Source: a virus
DNA length: 58,389 nt
Strand: one strand, 5' to 3'
Virus record (IMG/VR): IMGVR_UViG_3300031918_000028
Coordinates: 1-58,389 of that record
Shown piece by piece: positions 2,106-58,389 of this stretch. Made by a program: the position numbers and the translations under genes. The notes below the pieces were generated by a model, which was given only the letters and a program-made list of their open reading frames with translations, was not told where the DNA came from and did not search any database. Position 1 is the first letter of the stretch; each line of letters starts with the position of its first letter.

Positions 2106-3835
2106 GCGCGAACCTGACGATGACGGACCTGTTCTGTGGGGCCGGCGGATCCTCCACGGGCGCCGTGGCCGTCCCCGGCGTCCACGTCCGCCTCGCCGCG
2201 AACCACTGGGCCCTCGCCATCGAGACGCACAACGCGAACCACCCGGAGACCGACCACCTGCAAGCCGACATCTCACAGACCGACCCCCGGTACGTGCCCG
2301 CCACGGACATGCTCTGGGCGTCGCCCGAATGCACGAACCACTCCCGCGCGAAGGGCCGCAAGAAGATCTACCAGGCCGACCTGTTCGGCGACGGCCTACC
2401 CGACGAGGCCGCCGAGCGGTCCCGGGCGACCATGTGGGACGTCGTCCGCTTCACCGAGGTGCACCAGTACCGCGCGATCCTCGTGGAGAACGTCGTCGAG
2501 ATCGTCGACTGGGCGCCAGACGGGGCACCGATCGGCGTCCTGTTCGACTCGTGGCTGCGCACGATGCTCTCGATGGGGTACTCCCACCGGATCATCTCCA
2601 TGAACTCCATGCACGCGTCGGCCTACGGGCTACCGGCGCCGCAGTCCCGGGACCGCGTCTACATCGCGTTCTGGCGCAACGGTGAGCGGACGCCGGACTT
2701 CGAGCACATGCAGCGGCCCCGCGCCTACTGCCCAGTGTGCGGTGAGGTCGTCAGCTCGATCCAGTCGTGGAAGCGCGCCGGCACCAGGACGGGCCGCTAC
2801 CGGTCGCAGTACGTGTACCGCTGCCCGAAGGTCTCATGCCGCGGCCAGATCGTCGAGCCAGGGTGGCTGCCGGCGTCGTCGATCATCGACTGGTCCCTGC
2901 CAGGGCAGCGCATCGGCGACCGCGACAAGCCCCTCGCGGACAAGACGCTGCGCCGCATCCAGATGGGCATCGACCGCTACTGGGCGCCGTTCCTGCAGGA
3001 GACCGCCAACGGCTACGACGCCGCCGACCCGAAGCACACCCGGTACGGCGACCCCGACTCCTACTACCGGGTCTGGCCGCTGACCGAGCCCACCCAGGTC
3101 ATGCACACCCGGGAGTCGAAGGCCCTCGTCGTGCCACCGATCGCCGTCCCTGTTGAGGGCCGTGACGGGAAGCAGCCCGCGTCGATGCTCTACCCGATGC
3201 GGACCATGACCACCCGCTCCGAGACGGGCGTGGCGCTGCCCGCGTTCATGCTCGAGCGGCGGTTCGACTACCGGGTGCGGTCCCTTGATGACCCGATGTC
3301 GACCCTGACCGCGAACGACACGAGCAAGGCCGTCCTGAGCCCGCCGTTCATCGCCGAACTCCGCGGCGGCGGGTCGACCGCGCGTCTCGCGTCCGACCCG
3401 CTCGCCACCGTCACGGCGTCCGGTAACCACCACGGGCTCGTCGTGCCGTACTACGGAAACGGCCAGGCGACCCCGGACGGGAGACCGCTACCCACGGTCA
3501 CGACCCTCGCCCATCACGCGCTGATCATGCGGCACAACAACAACGGCGGCGAGGACCAGTCGTCGATGACCACGCCCGACTACGAGCCCGTCCGCACCAT
3601 GACCACCAAGGGCCAGCAGTCCGTCCTCCAGGGCCGCACCGTCAACATCGACGACGTCCGGTTCCGGATGCTCGAGCCGTCCGAGATCAAGCAGGCCATG
3701 GCGTTCCCCGCCGACTACACGATGCTCGGCAACCGCCGCGAGCAGGTCCGTCTCAGCGGCAATGCTGTCACCCCGCCGGCCGCGCGCGACCTGATCGCCA
3801 CCGTCGTGGCGGCCATCACGGGGGAAGCGGCATGA
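2102..3835 (+). CDS. DNA (cytosine-5) methyltransferase
   Basis: 577 residues from the ATG at 2102, which overlaps the previous stop as ATGA; an in-frame ATG nine bases earlier is the alternative. Motif I is DLFCGAGGSSTG near residue 9, the catalytic Cys is in ASPECTNHS at about 77, the ENVVEI motif is near 129, and the closing LSGNAVTPPAARDL gives motifs IX-X. The target-recognition region carries a four-Cys ribbon (YCPVCGE, YRCPKVSC) and then several related segments (DPMSTLTA, DPLATVTAS, RPLPTVTT, EPVRTMTT). It transfers a methyl group from AdoMet to cytosine C5, most likely to protect phage DNA. No nuclease lies beside it. Confidence 0.93.
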   Translation: MSANLTMTDLFCGAGGSSTGAVAVPGVHVRLAANHWALAIETHNANHPETDHLQADISQTDPRYVPATDMLWASPECTNHSRAKGRKKIYQADLFGDGLPDEAAERSRATMWDVVRFTEVHQYRAILVENVVEIVDWAPDGAPIGVLFDSWLRTMLSMGYSHRIISMNSMHASAYGLPAPQSRDRVYIAFWRNGERTPDFEHMQRPRAYCPVCGEVVSSIQSWKRAGTRTGRYRSQYVYRCPKVSCRGQIVEPGWLPASSIIDWSLPGQRIGDRDKPLADKTLRRIQMGIDRYWAPFLQETANGYDAADPKHTRYGDPDSYYRVWPLTEPTQVMHTRESKALVVPPIAVPVEGRDGKQPASMLYPMRTMTTRSETGVALPAFMLERRFDYRVRSLDDPMSTLTANDTSKAVLSPPFIAELRGGGSTARLASDPLATVTASGNHHGLVVPYYGNGQATPDGRPLPTVTTLAHHALIMRHNNNGGEDQSSMTTPDYEPVRTMTTKGQQSVLQGRTVNIDDVRFRMLEPSEIKQAMAFPADYTMLGNRREQVRLSGNAVTPPAARDLIATVVAAITGEAA

Positions 3836-48235: not shown

Positions 48236-48236
48236 G

Positions 48237-48315
48237 TGGAGCTGCCGGGAGTCGAACCCGAGTCCGGCCCACGTCCGCATGCGGTTGTCGGTGACCGTCG
48301 AAACCGTCCAGCCCC
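48237..48315 (-). ncRNA. tmRNA-like RNA reduced to the tRNA-like domain; alternative attachment site
   Basis: On the minus strand the RNA starts GGGGCUGGACGGUUUCGACG, matching the 5' end of actinobacterial tmRNA, and ends with UCGGG-UUCGACU-CCCGG (T arm), CAGCUCC and discriminator A. The 7-bp acceptor stem GGGGCUG/CAGCUCC has a G3-U70 pair, the alanyl-tRNA synthetase identity element. The mRNA-like part with the tag codons and pseudoknots (about 250-300 nt) is missing; a short P2-like stem (CGGUC/GGCCG) joins the halves. CCA is not encoded. It may be a charged tRNA mimic, an attP core, or a remnant. Confidence 0.75.
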
Positions 48316-48329
48316 TCGCTGACCCGACT

Positions 48330-48578
48330 CTACGGACGGGGTGCGACCCGCCGGCGGATGGCCCGCCACAGCACCTCGTCGACCATCCGCGACGCCGGAT
48401 GCGCCAGCACCGCCGCCAGGTCCATCCGGTCCGGCCAGGGGCCCTGCTCCCACCAGGCGTCCCGTGCTGCGAGCATCGTCGCCAGCAGTTCGTCCGGCAG
48501 GCCCTCGGCGCGGGCCCGGTCCATCGCCGCCGCAGCGGAGAGAACCTGCTCGGCGGGCCTGTCGGGGGCGCTCATCAT
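48330..48578 (-). CDS. hypothetical protein
   Basis: 82 residues from the ATG with GGAG five bases upstream (a second ATG follows at once). Helical with several Trp (DAWWEQGPWPDRMDLAAVL, DEVLWRAIRRRV). It lies between the tmRNA-like RNA and the integrase on the same strand. No family recognised. Confidence 0.55.
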   Translation of the reverse strand: MMSAPDRPAEQVLSAAAAMDRARAEGLPDELLATMLAARDAWWEQGPWPDRMDLAAVLAHPASRMVDEVLWRAIRRRVAPRP

Positions 48579-48716
48579 GGTGGCTCCACGGAGGCTAGAA
48601 GACACAGCAAGAGACAGAAAGCCCAGGTCAGCGGCTACGGACAGATGTTCGACCAGCCCCCATCACCCGGCGCGCGCGGCGGTGAATGTGCAGGTCCGGG
48701 CCCCTATGGTGCGGAT

Positions 48717-48741
48717 GAGTCAGTCGATACGCCGGGTTCTG
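48717..48741 (-). other. segment like the 3' end of RNase P RNA; candidate attP core
   Basis: On the minus strand CAGAACCCGGCGTATCGACT then GACTC. CAGAACCCGGCGTA is the conserved 3' strand of helix P4 in bacterial RNase P RNA (rnpB) and the rest fits the P1 3' strand. Only this 25-base piece is present. It lies 25 bases past the integrase stop, where attachment cores are often found, so integration into the 3' end of a host rnpB is a reasonable guess. Confidence 0.55.
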
Positions 48742-48766: not shown

Positions 48767-49930
48767 CTACGCCGCCGGTGGCTCTGCGGAGGCTGCGAGA
48801 TCGTCCTCAGACCTGGGTAGGAGCACGACGCCGTCCGCCGTGTCACGCATGCGCTCATCGTCGTCGGGCCACAGGTGGGCGTAGGTCTGCAGCGTCTCCG
48901 CCGGATTCCGGTGGCCGAGGCGATGCGCCACAGCGACCGGGGAGGCGCCGCCGGCGATGAGGAGCGACGCGTGGAAGTGCCGCAGCGCATGCCACGCCTC
49001 TCCCGCGGGTATCCCGGCCGGGTCCGCCGCAGCGTGCCAGACCTGCCACGTGACCTTCGGCATCATGGCCCCGCCGCGGCGGGTGGTGAACACCAGGCCC
49101 TCGCCACGGTCACCCAACACGGCGCGGGTGGTCTTGCCGATGGGCACCGTCCGCACGCTCCCGGGGGTCTTGGGCGGCCCCCACTTCGGCGCCGTGGCCG
49201 ACCCTGAACGCAGCAGCTGCCGGTCGACGCGCAGCGCCGCGGTGCCGTCTTCGCCATCGACGACCCGGTCCCAGGTGAGCCCGACGAGCTCGCCGATCCG
49301 CAGGCCCGACGCCGCCGCGAGGATGAACAGCGGCCGGTAGCGCGGGTCAGCCCCGTCCACGACCTTCTGCACGGTCGACACGCTGAGCGGGACGATCGGC
49401 CCGGCTTCCACCGGCGGCAGGTTGATCCGCCGGCACGGGCTGGTGTGGATGCGCCGCTCCTCGACAGCCAGAGTGCAGATCCCCGCCAGGTAGACGTAGG
49501 TCACGCGCACGGTCGACGGCGCGAGCTTGCCCGCCCACACCGTGACAGCGGCCTGCACGCGGCCCCGGGTCATCGCCGACCAGGGCACATCGCCGAGCGT
49601 CGGCAGGATGTACCGGTCGAGCCGGCCCCGGACTTGCCGCAGTGACGTCGCCCGCTGGTGCACCTGCTCGAGGTACCAGCGTTCCGCCACCGCGCGGACC
49701 GTGGTCGAGCTGGCCGCCGGGGAGATGTAGGTGCCGGTCCGCTGCTGAACACCGACGTCTTCGAGCCATGCAAGAGCGGCGTTCTTCGTGGTGAAGGCCT
49801 TGCGCCGGCGGACGCCGTCGGCTTCGGCCCACGTCGCCAGCCACCGCTTGCCCACGCCGTAGCGGTCGGTGCGGGTGCGTCCGTTCCCGGCGGGGCTCGG
49901 CGTGGTCCATCGGTCCTCAACATGCGCCAT
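48767..49930 (-). CDS. int: tyrosine integrase
   Basis: 387 residues from the ATG at 49930. An N-terminal arm-binding domain (about 1-60), a core-binding domain (about 75-165, RWYLEQVHQRATSLRQVRGR) and the catalytic domain follow. The full active site is present: R211 (ASGLRIGEL), K254, H314 and R317 (HALRH), H340 (LGHRN) and Y350. It catalyses integration and, with an excisionase, excision. An excisionase-like gene is at 52002. Cotranscribed with the lipoprotein gene five bases upstream. Confidence 0.95.
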   Translation of the reverse strand: MAHVEDRWTTPSPAGNGRTRTDRYGVGKRWLATWAEADGVRRRKAFTTKNAALAWLEDVGVQQRTGTYISPAASSTTVRAVAERWYLEQVHQRATSLRQVRGRLDRYILPTLGDVPWSAMTRGRVQAAVTVWAGKLAPSTVRVTYVYLAGICTLAVEERRIHTSPCRRINLPPVEAGPIVPLSVSTVQKVVDGADPRYRPLFILAAASGLRIGELVGLTWDRVVDGEDGTAALRVDRQLLRSGSATAPKWGPPKTPGSVRTVPIGKTTRAVLGDRGEGLVFTTRRGGAMMPKVTWQVWHAAADPAGIPAGEAWHALRHFHASLLIAGGASPVAVAHRLGHRNPAETLQTYAHLWPDDDERMRDTADGVVLLPRSEDDLAASAEPPAA

Positions 49931-49935
49931 CGACG

Positions 49936-50274
49936 TCAGTCCAGGCCGACGAGGCAGGAGCGCATCGTCTTCCCGCCAGCGGACTCGATGATGACGACCT
50001 CCACCGGGTCGAGGTCGTCGGTGATCGCGATCGTGTCGCACATTCCGATGGCCGGCCCGTAGTCGAGGTCGTCAGTGCTGCTGAGGGTCGTCTCGACGAC
50101 AGCCGTGATCTCGCTCTGCTGCGTCACGTCGGTGATGAACTCGGCCCACGGGTCGAGGGCCTGGAGGATCGCCGGCTTCTGCGGCGACTCGGGCCGCGGG
50201 CTGCTGCAGGCGCCGAACCCCATCGCGACCGCCGCTACGACAGCCACGGTGGCGATGCTTCGTCCGGCGTTCAT
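49936..50274 (-). CDS. lipoprotein, possible superinfection exclusion factor
   Basis: 112 residues with a strong GGGAGGGG ribosome site. The N-terminus (AGRSIATVAVVAAVAMGFGA then CSSP) is a lipoprotein signal with Cys23 as the lipid-attached residue. The mature part is acidic (SSTDDLDYGPAIGMCDTIAI). It is encoded with the integrase and repressor genes, so it is likely made in lysogens, where surface lipoproteins often exclude other phages. That role is inferred from context. Confidence 0.75.
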   Translation of the reverse strand: MNAGRSIATVAVVAAVAMGFGACSSPRPESPQKPAILQALDPWAEFITDVTQQSEITAVVETTLSSTDDLDYGPAIGMCDTIAITDDLDPVEVVIIESAGGKTMRSCLVGLD

Positions 50275-57960: not shown

Positions 57961-58389
57961 ATGACCACCAAGAAGGCCGCCGAGCCGGCCGCAACCACCG
58001 TCCACGCCATCAAGGGCTTCAACCCGGACCTGACCTGCCGCGGCTTCCAGTTCGCCGAGGGCCAGACCTACGAGCACGACGGACCGGTGAGCCTGTGCCA
58101 CTCGGGCTTCCACGCGGTCACCCAGCCGATCGACGTGCTCCGCTACTACCCGCCCACCCGATCGATCTACCACGAGGTCGACCTCGAGGAGACCGTCGGT
58201 CCTGACGGCGACGACTCGAAAGTCGCAGCCCGGGTCATCAAGATCGGCGTCAAGGTCGAGCTTCCGGCGCTGATCAAGGCGCAGGTGGACTTCGTGTTCG
58301 CCCACGCCAAGAAGCCGACGGCGGGAGGCGTGTCCAAGGCTGACCACGGCTGCGCTGTGGCGAAGACCGAGAACGGCGCGGCCACGGCC
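57961..58389 (+). CDS. DUF7666-type repeat protein, 5' part (continues at 1)
   Basis: 143 residues up to the window end. The DUF7666-like domain is clear: IKGFNPDLTCRGFQFAEGQT, HDGPVSLCHSGFHAVTQPID and LRYYPPTRSIYHEVDLEE, then VAARVIKIGVKVELPALIK. The last residues (GCAVAKTENGAATA) enter the ATASGDYGA repeat that continues at position 1. The family is common in phages and its function is not known. Confidence 0.87.
   Translation, partial: MTTKKAAEPAATTVHAIKGFNPDLTCRGFQFAEGQTYEHDGPVSLCHSGFHAVTQPIDVLRYYPPTRSIYHEVDLEETVGPDGDDSKVAARVIKIGVKVELPALIKAQVDFVFAHAKKPTAGGVSKADHGCAVAKTENGAATA

Follow-up and report, generated by a model that had tools for sequence, protein, structure and literature searches.

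What might a temperate phage gain from carrying both ends of a bacterial transfer-messenger RNA (tmRNA) with nothing of the region in between that encodes the peptide tag? The question is raised by the IMG/VR virus record IMGVR_UViG_3300031918_000028, the whole stretch of which (58,389 bp) was analyzed and is referred to here as the window. A first-pass annotation, made from the sequence alone, had described an element of 79 nucleotides (nt) on its minus strand as a tmRNA cut down to its tRNA-like domain. We confirm that the window carries a complete tRNA-like domain of a one-piece tmRNA without the tag region. Judged by its sequence, this mini-tmRNA is an intact member of a widespread family spanning many unrelated phages. 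The best-supported reading is that of a tag-less tmRNA which would be charged or would bind SmpB.

The RNA element

Read from 48315 to 48237 on the minus strand, the element is GGGGCUG GAC GGUUUCGAC GGUCACCGACAACCGCAUGCGGACGUGGGCC GGAC UCGGG UUCGACU CCCGG CAGCUCC A. The Rfam tmRNA model RF00023 matches this segment with 59.3 bits (gathering threshold 47) over model positions 1–374, with about 300 middle positions absent, which bears out the annotated location, strand and presence of both tmRNA ends. The acceptor stem forms seven of seven pairs and includes G3-U70, as had been annotated. The discriminator A73, the stemless reduced D region (GGNUUCGAC) and the expected T arm are present as well, the last both in the sequence and in the alignment to the family model R1 described below. 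CCA is not encoded, and C74 falls at 48236. The mRNA-like domain with its tag reading frame and stop codon is absent from the RF00023 alignment, ARAGORN reported no tmRNA in the window, and the pseudoknots around the reading frame are missing from both the RF00023 and the R1 alignments; the claim that the tag region had been lost is thus upheld. What remains of the middle is a P2 stem of 6 bp, whose existence had been recognized, together with a bulged G and a hairpin cap (CCGCAUGCGG) that had been missed.

The ends had been assigned to an actinobacterial type, with a comparison to host ssrA suggested as a check. In 16 of 397 sampled Actinomycetota genomes the ssrA 3' end is a single base away from the last 30 nt of the element, and in none of the 397 is it an exact match; the 5' end is one base off the actinobacterial ssrA sequence GGGGCTGAACGGTTTCGAC. 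Across the mini-tmRNA region, the window has 100% identity with two contigs that come from other samples. Folding energy taken by itself gave no useful signal for the element (z score −0.41).

A conserved family in phages

Relatives were collected from viral sequences with a broad pattern (GGNTTCGAC, a gap, GGGTTCGANTCCC), narrower variants of which then gave 84, 59 and 2 loci. Retained loci were screened for pairing of the acceptor stem (at least 6 of 7 pairs) and of the T stem, a screen that treats G-C and G-U alike at position 3. Pattern scans and screen together yielded at least 173 loci and at least 112 distinct sequences (all family counts are lower bounds), nearly all of them 74–81 nt long and nearly all in viral contigs. 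The pattern fixed GGNTTCGAC (GG-N-TTCGAC) and part of the T arm, where invariance is by construction and proves nothing, and it left the positions of G3-U70 and A73 free. At these free positions, G3-U70 occurs in 110 and A73 in all 112 of the distinct sequences listed, across 37 versions of the acceptor stem. The unscreened GGTTTCGAC set, in which the end motifs lie this close together, behaves in the same way: at least six of the seven acceptor pairs form in 101 of its 103 distinct viral sequences (null expectation 3%), and 99 of these 101 have G3-U70.

The covariance model R1 was built from 30 members with a spacer of 3, the window copy included, because acceptor stems with spacers of 4–5 nt were misplaced by the initial MAFFT alignment; the remaining members were realigned to it. 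Members score 47.7–94.5 bits. The window copy, a training sequence, scores 81.7 bits and the next-best match in the window 14.4. Non-members mostly stay below 30 bits (ordinary tRNAs about 23 or less, the full Kumao tmRNA 28, permuted tmRNAs below 27). Matches in Lactococcus 936, RpAliso, S-CAM1 and CcrBL9 are not members by this score, the last three being permuted tmRNAs, and Synechococcus S-CRM01 was rejected at 21.4 bits.

In a structure-blind alignment of the 30 members, 95.6% of cells pair and 153 double changes are seen, versus 46 in shuffles. Among 98 members aligned to the model, an alignment that leans towards the structure, the values are 96.2% and 582 versus 176, with a covariation score of 0.697 against 0.07–0.12 for slid partners. 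Compensatory changes occur in the acceptor stem, P2, the hairpin cap and the T stem. The sequence, fold and conservation of the family are therefore matters of observation. Could the element nevertheless be the relic of a full tmRNA in decay, with no function? The missing tag domain and the varied places in which copies are found would fit, yet compensatory changes in three helices, the near-invariant G3-U70 and A73 and the positioning of promoters described below make this extremely improbable. Host ssrA lacks the P2 hairpin cap that characterizes the family, and a deletion derivative of host ssrA was rejected for this reason.

The family is phage-specific. The GGTTTCGAC pattern gave 14 matches in 85,000 prokaryote genomes (257 Gb), of which only 7 are real, all 7 in metagenome-assembled genomes. 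Copies are present in nine named phages (Streptomyces phages LuckySocke, GiJojo, pSt2308, BRock, Alone3, Shaeky and Riptide, Pontimonas phage phiPsal1 and Stenotrophomonas phage Jojan60), in none of which is the copy annotated as tmRNA. The Riptide copy (1477–1553), inside a tRNA array, is a variant with GGU-UAGAU in place of GGUUUCGAC.

Several weaker or partial matches were also seen. A segment of Microbacterium phage Armstrong (1438–1527; 39.5 bits), with the D region GGCAUCGCC and located upstream of two tRNA genes, is possibly a divergent mini-tmRNA, and its 3' piece recurs in several Microbacterium phages. A metagenome-assembled genome of Eremiobacterota has paired weak R1 matches of 33–34 bits (1423–1494 and 1645–1714). 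Lactococcus phage CB14 has two unannotated tRNA-like matches and a tmRNA-like 3' half at 716–1024, near the right end of the 936-group phages.

Table 1. The mini-tmRNA, its parts and neighboring features in the window
Feature	Position	Strand	Basis
Mini-tmRNA (tRNA-like domain of tmRNA with capped P2), 79 nt, G1 to A73	48237..48315	−	Rfam RF00023, family model R1, sequence
Acceptor stem, 5' strand GGGGCUG; G3 = 48313	48309..48315	−	7/7 pairs with 48244–48238, R1 alignment
Reduced D region, GAC-GGUUUCGAC	48297..48308	−	Sequence
P2 stem GGUCAC/GU-GGCC, 6 pairs, bulged G at 48270; cap CCG-CAUG-CGG at 48284–48275	48266..48296	−	R1 alignment, family covariation
T arm UCGGG-UUCGACU-CCCGG	48245..48261	−	Sequence, R1 alignment
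Acceptor stem, 3' strand CAGCUCC (U70 = 48240), and discriminator A73 (48237)	48237..48244	−	Sequence, R1 alignment
Open reading frame (ORF) of 91 aa, stop codon 14 nt upstream of mini-tmRNA	48330..48605	−	No relatives found
Likely attP core, rnpB 3'-end element CAGAACCCGGCGTATCGACTGACTCATCCGC	48711..48741	−	29 of 31 bases shared with an actinobacterial rnpB 3' end (locus L258; RF00010 286 bits)
Tyrosine integrase	48767..50041	−	PF00589 58.8 bits, phrog_1; closest named phages TripleJ and Kukla, 42%

Integrase and attachment site

Is the element no more than an attachment site, an attP copied from the 3' end of host ssrA and without a function as RNA? It lies 450 nt from the integrase gene, ssrA is a common attB, and the 3' 30 nt have the one-base difference noted above. 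A better attP, however, is the rnpB-like element found directly behind the integrase gene, about 400 nt from the mini-tmRNA. Arthrobacter phage TripleJ shares this arrangement, with CAGAACCCGGCGTATCGGTCAACCCATCCAC at the corresponding place behind int (about 3651–3682). With at most one mismatch allowed, 21 of 297 Actinomycetota genomes contain the 17-mer core, and not one of them contains its reversed control. All four core loci that were scanned contain an RNase P RNA gene with the match at its 3' end; one rnpB agrees with the window element at 29 of 31 bases and a different rnpB with the TripleJ element at 31 of 31. The Rfam scan of the window returned no piece of rnpB, the core being only 31 nt. 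Since the element behind int matches rnpB 3' ends, rnpB is the likely attB of the window phage and the mini-tmRNA would be a separate gene. The same matches suggest RNase P RNA as the attachment site for the integrase group of the window phage and TripleJ. If attB is rnpB, the 91-aa ORF and the mini-tmRNA of an integrated phage would come to lie downstream of rnpB and in its orientation.

The wider family points the same way. Only 7 of 50 family records yielded a tyrosine integrase, which in several of those lies kilobases from the copy, and phages in which no integrase was found share the internal hairpin and the G8-A9 signature of the family. No core identical to a host ssrA 3' end was found beside int in the comparison with the 397 Actinomycetota genomes. 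The first-pass annotation had held that a 5' half is unexpected in an attachment site, and the 5' half, the internal hairpin and the covariation indeed go unexplained if the segment is one. It had also named the case that would overturn it, a whole segment duplicated from host DNA as the att core; this fails on the likely attP elsewhere, the family-wide hairpin and G8-A9, and the compensatory changes. An attP derived from ssrA was thus rejected on the rnpB-type core behind int and the general lack of int in the family, and we give it hardly any credence. The mini-tmRNA is independent of the att site.

The tRNA-dependent lysogeny of actinobacteriophages (PMC10865867) resembles the present case in that a temperate phage has, close to int, a small RNA gene like one of its host. 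In that system, however, integration disrupts a host tRNA, for which the phage RNA substitutes, whereas the window phage likely has rnpB instead of ssrA as its attB and no tag-less RNA could stand in for tmRNA; this model was rejected on both grounds.

Known relatives and possible function

The mini-tmRNA resembles standard one-piece tmRNA (ssrA, RF00023) in having both ends, G3-U70, A73, a reduced D region and a T arm and in passing the Rfam threshold; it differs in its length (79 nt versus about 365) and in having no pseudoknots and no tag reading frame. The original report of a tmRNA consisting of the tRNA-like domain only, from mycobacteriophage DS6A, is said to be that of Mao et al. 2009. 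According to later accounts (PMC4131195, PMC11915505), expression of the DS6A RNA in E. coli inhibits endogenous tmRNA, and a similar molecule has this effect regardless of its ability to be charged. As described there, the DS6A RNA is, like the window RNA, phage-encoded and little beyond a tRNA-like domain. It is a single reported case, whereas the mini-tmRNAs make up a large family in which the P2 hairpin cap is conserved. Forms without a coding part are likewise known from mitochondria (jakobids, oomycetes) and, at about 65 bp, from plastids of Mallomonadaceae; these are organellar, the mitochondrial genes are mostly permuted, and the reductions are presumably independent (PMC11915505).

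How would such an RNA act? In some phages a −10 box of its own would drive its transcription, and in others it would be transcribed within tRNA arrays or operons; it would then be trimmed and given its CCA, which most family members, like actinobacterial ssrA, do not encode. Of 116 distinct upstream regions, 23 have a TANNNT hexamer whose last base lies exactly 6 nt ahead of G1, versus about 1 per other position (regions of related phages are not independent), and transcription therefore probably starts at the mature 5' end in some phages. Host alanyl-tRNA synthetase would charge the RNA with alanine through G3-U70 and A73, which specify charging by this enzyme, and host SmpB and EF-Tu would bind the charged RNA. 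SmpB binding needs D/T-loop interactions, the D-region signature of tmRNA is contacted by SmpB in known structures, and the tRNA-like domain in complex with SmpB has been observed on the ribosome in a pre-accommodated state (PDB 4ABR) (PMC3968760). The SmpB would be that of the host, since no SmpB gene (PF01668) was found in 50 family records; a phage-encoded partner was rejected for the same reason. A small hairpin closes P2 where tmRNA has its pseudoknots and tag reading frame, and because no reading frame is present the nascent chain would not be tagged for proteolysis. SmpB and the ribosomes stalled on non-stop mRNA would both be contested between the RNA and host tmRNA, and on the whole host trans-translation would be damped or bypassed, in infection or, for the temperate window phage, in the lysogen. 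From the DS6A inhibition and the structure of the domain with SmpB we infer competition without tagging, and on balance we favor an alanylated mini-tmRNA that, bound to host SmpB, would rival host tmRNA at stalled ribosomes and add no tag.

Several points weigh against this proposal. Expression, charging and binding are predicted from sequence, no sigma-70 promoter match was found for the window copy, whose transcription is putative, and any benefit to a phage of lower trans-translation is conjectural. Moreover, G3-U70 is kept strictly although inhibition of the DS6A kind needs no charging, which suggests selection beyond titration of SmpB. Near-invariance of G3-U70 speaks for selection of charging, and peptide transfer to the RNA, whether as trapping or as tagless rescue, is thus likely to be part of the function.

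Tagless rescue would mean that the alanylated mini-tmRNA with SmpB rescues non-stop ribosomes: the chain gains one alanine, the ribosome dissociates, the peptidyl-RNA is hydrolyzed and phage proteins are released untagged. The retention of G3-U70 and A73 almost without exception, when inhibition alone is reportedly independent of charging, speaks for it, as does the persistence of tag-less mitochondrial and plastid tmRNAs, the mitochondrial ones with SmpB and thought to act with it (PMC11915505). With no stop codon there is no normal release, however, release by Pth or drop-off is hypothetical, and the reported activity of an RNA with only the tRNA-like domain is inhibition; we regard tagless rescue as a rather unlikely explanation, to be kept in mind. 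Stated more broadly, it seems reasonably probable that phages repeatedly carry an alanine-charged, tag-less tmRNA that would enter non-stop ribosomes via host SmpB and block or replace degradative rescue, be it as a counter-system or as a tagless rescue pathway.

In the literature searched, most of which lies outside subscription journals and preprints, no phage family of mini-tmRNAs is described and DS6A is the only phage precedent for a tmRNA of this kind. Across all sources, the 2025 tmRNA database lists only 9 unique one-piece sequences that lack a tag frame. The present set adds at least 112 distinct phage sequences, structurally conserved and with a near-perfect alanine identity element, and the nine named phages with their unannotated copies. 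That so conserved and almost undescribed a family occurs in many unrelated phages suggests that interference with bacterial ribosome rescue, or its bypass, is common among phages. Phage manipulation of trans-translation is now directly testable in culturable systems, for example Streptomyces phages LuckySocke, Alone3, BRock and Shaeky, and if the RNA does rescue ribosomes without tagging, a further mode of ribosome rescue would be added.

Genomic context

Many family copies are located inside phage tRNA arrays. Such arrays are thought to counter tRNA-cleaving defenses, and the RNA could accordingly be a decoy or substitute against host enzymes directed at, or triggered by, tRNA, tmRNA or stalled ribosomes, resistant for want of an anticodon loop. 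Many other copies, however, are solitary or stand beside capsid or replication genes, and the tmRNA D-region signature, itself fixed by the search pattern, points to SmpB over generic tRNA mimicry; a role in such an arms race is improbable. The phiPsal1 copy lies between the head protease and major capsid genes, a group of contigs has a copy near those genes, and others adjoin a replication-initiation gene or sit in a helicase/primase module. In the window, the 91-aa ORF and the mini-tmRNA are possibly co-transcribed.

In five records (L007, L029, L035, L102 and L271) the mini-tmRNA stands directly upstream of the major capsid gene, where it could affect expression of that gene. The window itself starts inside a repeat array (1–100) in which its terminal 15 bases (58375–58389) recur, and the assembly of this contig probably broke in a repetitive gene.
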